DNA from: Candidatus Stoquefichus massiliensis AP9
Lineage (GTDB): Bacteria; Bacillota_I; Bacilli_A; Erysipelotrichales; Coprobacillaceae
Direction: 5' to 3'
NCBI RefSeq assembly: GCF_000455285.1
Contig: NZ_HG005285.1
Span: forward strand, 315,286-348,570
Length of the DNA: 33,285 nt
A program made the translations under genes and the position numbers. Positions within the stretch are counted from its first letter, which is position 1; each line of letters starts with the position of its first letter. Of the stretch, positions 9,876 to 29,416 are shown in pieces. Below the pieces are notes generated by a model, which saw only the letters and a program-made list of their open reading frames with translations, was not told where the DNA came from and did not search any database.

Positions 9876-10091
9876 AAAAGTCGTCCATCTAAGGACGACT
9901 TTATCGCGTTACCACCTTAGTTCATGTATTTACATGCCCTCAACACCTTAACGCAGTGATACGATCAAAACTACTCATTTCATTTTGACATCTCCAAGGC
10001 GAGTTCATTGCATCCTCTACTTGTTTTCACCACCCACAAGTTCTCTACAAGATTCCTAACAACTACTATTCCTCTTCATTGATTTTACATA
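9876..10091 (-). promoter_or_regulatory. Leucine-specific T-box leader of leuS
   Basis: The untranslated leader has the conserved T-box core AGGTGGTAACGCG (complement of 9905-9917), where the uncharged tRNA 3' end pairs. It is followed by a strong terminator, AAGTCGTCC/GGACGACTT (9878-9886 and 9893-9901) with a T-run. Upstream, the distal stem-I signature GGTGGTGAAAAC and a specifier segment TGAACTCGCC are seen. The specifier reads CTC, a Leu codon (10001-10003), matching the gene. Uncharged tRNA-Leu should stabilise the antiterminator and allow leuS expression. Confidence 0.93.
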
Positions 10092-16595: not shown

Positions 16596-16725
16596 AAAAA
16601 AAGCTTTCAAGAGGAAAGCTTTGTGCTTCCTCTTATTGTTCAAGTAAACTTGCTAGGTAAGGCACCTTCTTTAAAAAGGGTTGCCACCACTTCATTGATC
16701 CTCATCTCGTGGTTCTTAATAAGAG
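16596..16725 (-). promoter_or_regulatory. SAM-I (S-box) riboswitch with intrinsic terminator, metK leader
   Basis: On the minus strand P1 is CTCTTATT...AATAAGAG (16725-16718 with 16637-16630). Inside are AAGAACCAC/GTGG (P2), the GGCAACC...GGTGCC P3 core and a CAAGT/CTTG P4. Downstream, AAAGCTTTC/GAAAGCTTT plus a T-run (16596-16622) is the terminator. The 3' P1 strand and following AAGAGGAAGC can pair with GCTTTCCTCTT of the terminator, giving the expected antiterminator switch. P2b looks unusually short (GAT-GAGG-ATC), with GAGG free for the pseudoknot with CCTT. Confidence 0.9.
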
Positions 16726-22527: not shown

Positions 22528-22603
22528 GGAGGTTTAGCTCAGTTGGGAGAGCATCTGCCTTACAAGCAGAGGGTCAGCGGTTCGAGCCCGTTAACCTCCA
22601 CCA
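22528..22603 (+). tRNA. tRNA-Val (UAC)
   Basis: Complete cloverleaf with acceptor GGAGGTT/AACCTCC, anticodon loop CTTACAA (anticodon TAC), T-loop GTTCGAGC and encoded CCA. Confidence 0.96.
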
Positions 22604-22606
22604 TTT

Positions 22607-22682
<76 letters not shown>

Positions 22683-22690
22683 TGTTTCTT

Positions 22691-22774
22691 GGGGAGGTAG
22701 CGAAGTGGCTAAACGCGGCTGACTGTAACTCAGTTCCTTTCGGTTCGGTGGTTCGAATCCGCCCCTCCCCACCA
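22691..22774 (+). tRNA. tRNA-Tyr (GUA)
   Basis: Class II tRNA with acceptor GGGGAGG/CCTCCCC, anticodon loop CTGTAAC (anticodon GTA), a long variable arm and encoded CCA. Confidence 0.95.
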
Positions 22775-22783
22775 TTTTTTTAT

Positions 22784-22859
22784 TGGGATATAGCCAAGCG
22801 GTAAGGCAACAGACTTTGACTCTGTCATCTCCCTGGTTCGAATCCAGGTATCCCAGCCA
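22784..22859 (+). tRNA. tRNA-Gln (UUG)
   Basis: Acceptor TGGGATA/TATCCCA, anticodon loop CTTTGAC (anticodon TTG), T-loop GTTCGAAT, discriminator G and encoded CCA. Confidence 0.95.
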
Positions 22860-22869
22860 ATGTATATTT

Positions 22870-22945
22870 GACCCGCTAGCTCAGTCGGTAGAGCATCTGA
22901 CTTTTAATCAGAGGGTCAGGCGTTCGAGTCGCCTGCGGGTCACCA
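22870..22945 (+). tRNA. tRNA-Lys (UUU)
   Basis: Acceptor GACCCGC/GCGGGTC, anticodon loop CTTTTAA (anticodon TTT), T-loop GTTCGAGT, encoded CCA. Confidence 0.96.
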
Positions 22946-22954
22946 TTCTTAAAT

Positions 22955-23028
22955 GCGGGTGTAGTTCAATGGTAGAACTTCAGCCTTCCAAGCTGACTAC
23001 GTGGGTTCGATTCCCATCACCCGCTCCA
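22955..23028 (+). tRNA. tRNA-Gly (UCC), copy 1
   Basis: 74 nt with acceptor GCGGGTG/CACCCGC, anticodon loop CTTCCAA (anticodon TCC), T-loop GTTCGATT, encoded CCA. Identical to the copies at 23052 and 28176. Confidence 0.96.
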
Positions 23029-23051
23029 TTTAAAATTTTATAAATCCTTAT

Positions 23052-23125
23052 GCGGGTGTAGTTCAATGGTAGAACTTCAGCCTTCCAAGCTGACTACGTG
23101 GGTTCGATTCCCATCACCCGCTCCA
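23052..23125 (+). tRNA. tRNA-Gly (UCC), copy 2
   Basis: Identical in all 74 positions to copy 1, 23 bases after it. Last tRNA of the cluster. Confidence 0.96.
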
Positions 23126-28175: not shown

Positions 28176-28249
28176 GCGGGTGTAGTTCAATGGTAGAACT
28201 TCAGCCTTCCAAGCTGACTACGTGGGTTCGATTCCCATCACCCGCTCCA
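28176..28249 (+). tRNA. tRNA-Gly (UCC), copy 3
   Basis: Identical in all 74 positions to the two copies at 22955 and 23052, about 5 kb away, with its own promoter and a downstream hairpin terminator. It abuts the 3' end of the retron reverse transcriptase gene. Confidence 0.96.
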
Positions 28250-28260
28250 TAAAACAAACA

Positions 28261-28290
28261 AACTCATACACTAAACGTGTATGAGTTTTC
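28261..28290. terminator. Bidirectional terminator, tRNA-Gly and retron RT
   Basis: AACTCATACAC (28261-28271) pairs perfectly with GTGTATGAGTT (28277-28287), with T-rich tracts on both exits. The last codons and stop of the reverse transcriptase lie inside the hairpin. Confidence 0.85.
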
Positions 28291-29232: not shown

Positions 29233-29251
29233 TTTTATCTCCCTCCTTGCT

Positions 29252-29399
29252 GAACAATACAAATGATATTGTCATATGGAAATGGGCGGTGACTCTACAT
29301 GTCTCGTGTAGTTAAGCCCCTTGGAATATGACAATTTCCATGTCTTTATTTTTCTCATTCTTTAGCGACTCGCTAAAGTTTCGTATATCACTATTGTTC
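29252..29399 (-). ncRNA. Retron ncRNA (msr-msd), template and primer for the RT
   Basis: Minus-strand region just upstream of the RT gene. The ends pair as a1/a2: GAACAATA (29399-29392) with TATTGTTC (29259-29252), then TGATAT (29390-29385) with ATATCA (29269-29264), separated by an uneven internal loop. After a1 comes the hairpin CTTTAGCGA-G-TCGCTAAAG (29378-29360), containing UUAGCGAG as at the start of the classical Ec86 msr. A 24-nt A-rich linker leads to a long stem-loop: ATTGTCATAT (29335-29326) with ATATGACAAT (29277-29268), an internal loop, GGGC/GCCC, and a terminal CTACA/TGTAG hairpin, the likely msd. Boundaries of msr and msd are inferred; the pairing is seen directly. Confidence 0.85.
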
Positions 29400-29407
29400 A
29401 TAAATTC

Positions 29408-29416
29408 ATCATATCA
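29408..29416 (-). promoter_or_regulatory. Extended -10 promoter of the retron
   Basis: TGATATGAT on the minus strand (TATGAT 29413-29408). A start about seven bases downstream would fall at about 29401, next to the a1 5' end at 29399. No good -35 is seen. Confidence 0.55.

Follow-up and report, generated by a model that had tools for sequence, protein, structure and literature searches.

Among described retrons, the element closest to the one considered here is Ec107 (Retron-Eco5) of Escherichia coli, whose reverse transcriptase (RT) has a YCDD box, whose gene lies between slmA and pyrE (ttk-pyrE), and whose insertion replaces an intergenic palindrome (PMC6868368). The well-studied retron defence systems all possess an effector (PMC12548924), and a literature search returned no account of effectorless retrons. 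The window, that is, the whole 33,285-nt stretch of Candidatus Stoquefichus massiliensis AP9 DNA that was analysed, carries on its minus strand what we hold, at a probability of roughly nine in ten, to be a chromosomal retron of the Ec107 group, in which the msr-msd and, after it, its own RT share one transcript and no effector is encoded in cis. Judged by its sequence, the element is a new member of this known group, and it supplies a well-defined noncoding RNA (ncRNA) for retrons known mainly from one E. coli element.

On the minus strand, the region from 29400 to 29250 folds with a minimum free energy of −38.8 kcal/mol, against −23.2 ± 3.4 for shuffled sequences (z = −4.6; none of 200 shuffles was as good). 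The retron RNA opens with a1 and closes with a2 (29400–29251); between the two arms lie, in turn, an invariant G, a hairpin built on a CGAGUCG core and an msd stem in three parts. It is followed by a ribosome-binding site (AAGGAGGG) just upstream of the RT gene, the gene itself and a bidirectional terminator; the RNA is 149 nt long and the RT 322 aa (Table 1). The initial annotation had described this region as an msr-msd, and the fold reproduces the architecture that it drew. The msr hairpin, CUUUAGCG-AGU-CGCUAAAG, consists of 8 bp and a 3-nt loop and, read as a palindrome, has 9-nt arms around one base, such that the proposed palindrome holding UUAGCGAG is indeed present. The msd likewise shows the 10-bp base (AUUGUCAUAU with AUAUGACAAU), the symmetric 6-nt internal loop that separates it from a 4-bp GC stem (GGGC with GCCC), and the 5-bp terminal hairpin (CUACA, 29311–29307, with UGUAG, 29299–29295) that had been claimed, and its base-to-base span of 68 nt agrees with the short msd then envisaged, as the anatomy of the msd hairpin. 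Beyond the fold, support for the msr-msd assignment comes from the retron RT next to it, from the duplex of a1 with a2, from covariation among 34 orthologues and from homology to the Ec107 ncRNA. Rfam returned no retron family at the locus under either gathering or relaxed thresholds. The ncRNA occurs as a single copy in its own genome.

Table 1. Features of the retron locus (window positions; arms and motifs are given as read on the minus strand)
Feature	Position	Strand	Basis or remarks
Candidate extended −10 promoter element (TG-A-TATGAT)	29408–29413	−	Sequence; 7 nt upstream of a1
a1 arm, UGAACAAUA	29392–29400	−	Duplex with a2; pairing in 98.7% of cells (34 orthologues)
Predicted branching (priming) guanosine	29391	−	G in 34/34; directly after a1; inferred
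Second end-pairing block, GUGAU with AUCAU	From 29391, with about 29267–29262	−	Fold
msr hairpin, CUUUAGCGAGUCGCUAAAG, conserved CGAGUCG core	29360–29378	−	99.6% of cells paired; 4/8 pairs double-changed
msd base stem, 5′ arm, AUUGUCAUAU	29326–29335	−	Fold and covariation; 7/10 pairs with double changes
msd middle stem, 5′ arm, GGGC	29316–29319	−	Double changes in 3/4 pairs
msd terminal hairpin, CUACA...UGUAG	29295–29311	−	95.1% of cells paired
msd middle stem, 3′ arm, GCCC	29284–29287	−	Covariation test
msd base stem, 3′ arm, AUAUGACAAU	29268–29277	−	Fold and covariation
Invariant G just 5′ of a2	29260	−	G in 34/34 orthologues
a2 arm, UAUUGUUCA	29251–29259	−	Pairs with a1, 29400–29392
Retron reverse transcriptase, 322 aa	28264–29232	−	NALPH, YSDD and VTG (NVTG) motifs
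Bidirectional intrinsic terminator	28260–28288	−	12-pair stem; T run on both strands

The sister species within the genus has a related RT (66–67%), and so do numerous genomes from another family of Bacilli and seven contigs of uncultured Bacilli or Clostridia; the regions upstream of these RTs fold alike. Covariation was assessed in 34 distinct orthologous sequences, relatives rather than independent samples, and the test is fair in that the alignment was made by MAFFT and not by structure. Pairing is kept in 93.7% of cells and in 30–49% once the partners are slid by 1–3 columns, a comparison that favours the tested structure, which was partly read off the same alignment; this effect is too little to explain the double (compensatory) changes, seen in 27 of 43 pairs against 11.2 ± 1.9 in shuffles, with none of 500 shuffles as high. 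Conserved RNA pairing at the locus exceeds chance, and what the orthologues preserve through compensatory changes is pairing, not sequence alone. The two end-pairing blocks of the initial annotation fared differently. The first, between a1 and a2, stands, with 98.7% of cells paired and double changes in five of its seven pairs; the second (columns 43–47 with 212–217) is paired in 80.6% of cells with hardly any compensatory change, and may therefore be chance or transient.

Where the earlier description does give way is the branching G, which it had placed in the UUAGCGAG hairpin by resemblance to Ec86 (Retron-Eco1). The base in question, 29373, belongs to the sole AGC in the window's msr, and an AGC motif around the priming G has been reported as conserved in retrons (PMC6868368). 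However, 29373 is A in 22 of the 34 orthologues and G in the other 12, its U partner being kept, and the E. coli Ec107 hairpin reads GGCGAG, without AGC. The AGC of Ec107 stands instead at the a1 junction, its duplex being bounded by GCAATA/GCG and G/TATTGC (the slash marks the edge of the a1:a2 duplex). In Ec86, as read from an E. coli genome, the duplex ends CCCTTA/GC and ACG/TAAGGG, and the known priming G14 is the G directly after it. Because UUAGCGAG in Ec86 continues from the a1 arm instead of forming a hairpin around a CGAGUCG core, its likeness to the window's hairpin is, on this comparison, a coincidence. A branch G inside the hairpin was dropped, and we regard it as highly improbable. 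Both junctions, A/G at a1 and G/U at a2, are invariant among the 34 orthologues. This invariance, together with the same junction in Ec86 and Ec107, makes G29391 the predicted branch point, a candidate by conservation and position, and the alignment thus allows both the branch G and the start of the template to be predicted to the single base. Sitting less easily with an Ec107-group retron, the a1 junction of the window has AGU where the conserved motif would be AGC; the base after the invariant G is U in 27 of 34 orthologues, and AGC or GGC is found there in five. At four loci of a more distant family, the perfect duplex stops three bases earlier, leaving the a1 junction less clear.

The RT carries the motifs of the retron clade (NAXXH, VTG and YXDD) and adjoins an msr-msd with complementary a1/a2 ends, the arrangement that marks a retron. 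Its match to the PADLOC model RT_Ec107-like reaches 439.8 bits over 306 of 307 positions, the next model (type III-A) scoring 346 bits; Pfam assigns it to RVT_1, and its best PDB match is the Ec86 RT (1.9e-33). No extra domain is fused to the protein, which ends at 322 aa. It is under purifying selection between the two species of the genus (dN 0.25, dS 1.04, the latter near saturation). All phage and plasmid matches lie below 60% identity, and no close relatives were found in viral contigs. The terminator overlaps the 3′ end of the gene and is shared with the convergent tRNA-Gly (28176–28249). Upstream of a1, TG-A-TATGAT would be the −10 promoter element; in the alignment, TATAAT stands at this position in many orthologues, and a consensus promoter scan did not list the candidate and gave no evident −35. 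Several other RT genes or fragments are present in the same genome (six loci; three contigs); the best matches of those scanned are group II intron maturases, which leaves the RT of the retron as the sole retron-type RT found there. Among the relatives, one uncultured Bacilli contig (L014, 4899–5946) has the orthologous RT split over two frames, probably through decay of the copy or an assembly error, and at another locus (L010, 2689–4524) a serine-recombinase-like ORF of ~611 aa just upstream of the orthologous retron hints at a mobile element.

The Ec107 reference was reached through E. coli genomes in which the slmA–pyrE intergenic region is split. The two examined have a 320-codon RT between slmA and pyrE and no other gene; one RT was translated and has the YCDD box, and by site and box the two elements are taken to be Ec107 itself or a very near relative. 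In E. coli as a whole, about 370 of 5374 genomes lack the region as one piece, and, as both genomes examined carry an Ec107-type RT, Ec107 may be fairly common in the species. The RT from this site is 42% identical to that of the window and scores 437.4 bits with RT_Ec107-like. A covariance model built from Bacilli only, run over 218 kb, recovered both E. coli ncRNAs at full length (model positions 1–169) with 47.7 and 41.1 bits (E = 1.7e-5 and 2.2e-4, values that the tool itself describes as rough); the Ec86 locus was not reported in that search. A second family of the order has a diverged Ec107-like ncRNA of higher GC with a CAGCGAGUCGCUG-type hairpin.

In the window, the retron is flanked by a PucR-type regulator, the tRNA-Gly and an ABC transporter, and defence models applied to these neighbours gave nothing beyond generic ATPase matches of the transporter. 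The sister species has a retron at the same site, following the PucR-type gene (85% identity), and there the ABC transporter is separated from it by other genes; in other genera the PucR-type gene occurs without a retron. Relatives that lack the retron have other sequence after this gene, and no exact empty site was found. Across 55 loci (some duplicates), with flanks often of 1.5 kb, no protein family other than local syntenic genes recurs beside the RT; with flanks so short, a more distant partner gene would be missed. The locus thus has neither the effector gene nor the fused domain that tripartite defence retrons (types I–XIII) carry in cis, and, as in Ec107-like retrons, no accessory or effector gene stands beside the RT in the window, its relatives or E. 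coli. The most frequent neighbour, an ATPase whose gene precedes the RT in four Bacilli species, was rejected as an effector because many genomes of that bacterial family have it although the search found no retron in them, and because in two carriers it sits on another contig. A CTP synthase, whose gene adjoins two loci, is a housekeeping enzyme. Elsewhere in the window, a T-box leader (9888–10088) and a SAM riboswitch (16630–16725), both on the minus strand, exceed their Rfam gathering scores, and a tRNA cluster (Val, Thr, Tyr, Gln, Lys, Gly, Gly) occupies 22528–23125.

The inverted repeats could in principle serve the RT gene or that of the PucR-type regulator as a leader, attenuator or terminator, and the plus strand of the CUUUAGCG hairpin does pass a terminator pattern. 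That strand, however, runs opposite to the genes, the a1-msr-msd-a2 layout is conserved in its entirety in Ec107, a known msDNA producer, and RT orthologues keep the RNA while the genes upstream change; such a reading is scarcely credible. Nor is there much room for a decayed, nonfunctional retron, as might be suspected from the absence of an effector and from broken copies elsewhere (the two-frame RT of L014), when the 322-aa ORF is intact, with its catalytic residues, ribosome-binding site and terminator, dN/dS is well below 1 and the RNA covaries; we consider decay very improbable. The missing effector counts to some degree against the Ec107-group reading itself, as most studied retrons have one. 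A separate proposal is that the retron is tripartite and functions in trans, its effector being encoded elsewhere in the genome or being a core host protein. No gene recurs in the 55 loci, even though selection conserves both RT and RNA, and every well-studied retron defence system has an effector (PMC12548924); no candidate partner was seen, however, and we give this proposal slightly less than even odds.

Purifying selection on the RT, together with the conserved RNA, implies that the Ec107-group retron benefits itself or its host. Its likeliest function would be that of a phage-sensing or stress-linked ribonucleoprotein that works via a partner for which the host carries the gene at another locus. 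Phage sensing in concert with such a trans-acting partner is a first guess by analogy with other retrons, and a stress role is suggested solely by the published rise in Ec107 expression on phosphate starvation (PMC6868368). The consistent absence of an effector in both Bacilli and E. coli poses the question of what a toxin-less retron does. One answer, rather doubtful, is that the Ec107-like retrons make up an ancient lineage, spanning E. coli to gut Bacilli, that dispenses with a dedicated toxin and in which the RT, RNA and msDNA (or a core host protein) would themselves be the active device, and the near-invariant CGAGUCG hairpin its recognition element.

As for the working of the Ec107-group retron, transcription of the RNA would start just upstream of a1, a1 and a2 would pair, and the RT would bind the msr, for which the CGAGUCG hairpin is the likeliest recognition element. 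The RT would then prime from the 2′-OH of G29391, with cDNA synthesis beginning at G29260, just 5′ of a2, or a few nt upstream of this G (about 29260–29268) and continuing past the far stem arm (29335). The predicted product is a branched RNA–DNA molecule whose cDNA, ~70–80 nt long, would fold into the same stem. We infer msDNA synthesis from the locus on these sequence grounds, and an RNA of 149 nt with an RT of 322 aa is compact enough that it may serve DNA production in Bacillota.

Set beside known systems, the retron resembles Ec107 most closely. Both have an RT of the same group (RT_Ec107-like, about 440 bits each), an ncRNA homologous over its full length with the CGAGUCG hairpin and the A/G and G/U junctions, and no effector gene beside the RT. 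They differ in the catalytic box (YSDD in the window, YCDD in Ec107), in the msd sequence, in the long a1/a2 extension, which the window retron lacks, and in location, the window retron sitting downstream of a PucR-type regulator and beside tRNA-Gly. With type III-A retrons (PRTase plus DNA-binding protein) the likeness lies in the second-best PADLOC RT model (346 bits), whereas no type III partner gene stands beside the window RT. Ec86 shares a retron RT, a priming G directly after the a1:a2 duplex and a G just before a2; unlike the window retron, it has an effector gene, lacks the CGAGUCG hairpin and is not reported by the Bacilli covariance model.
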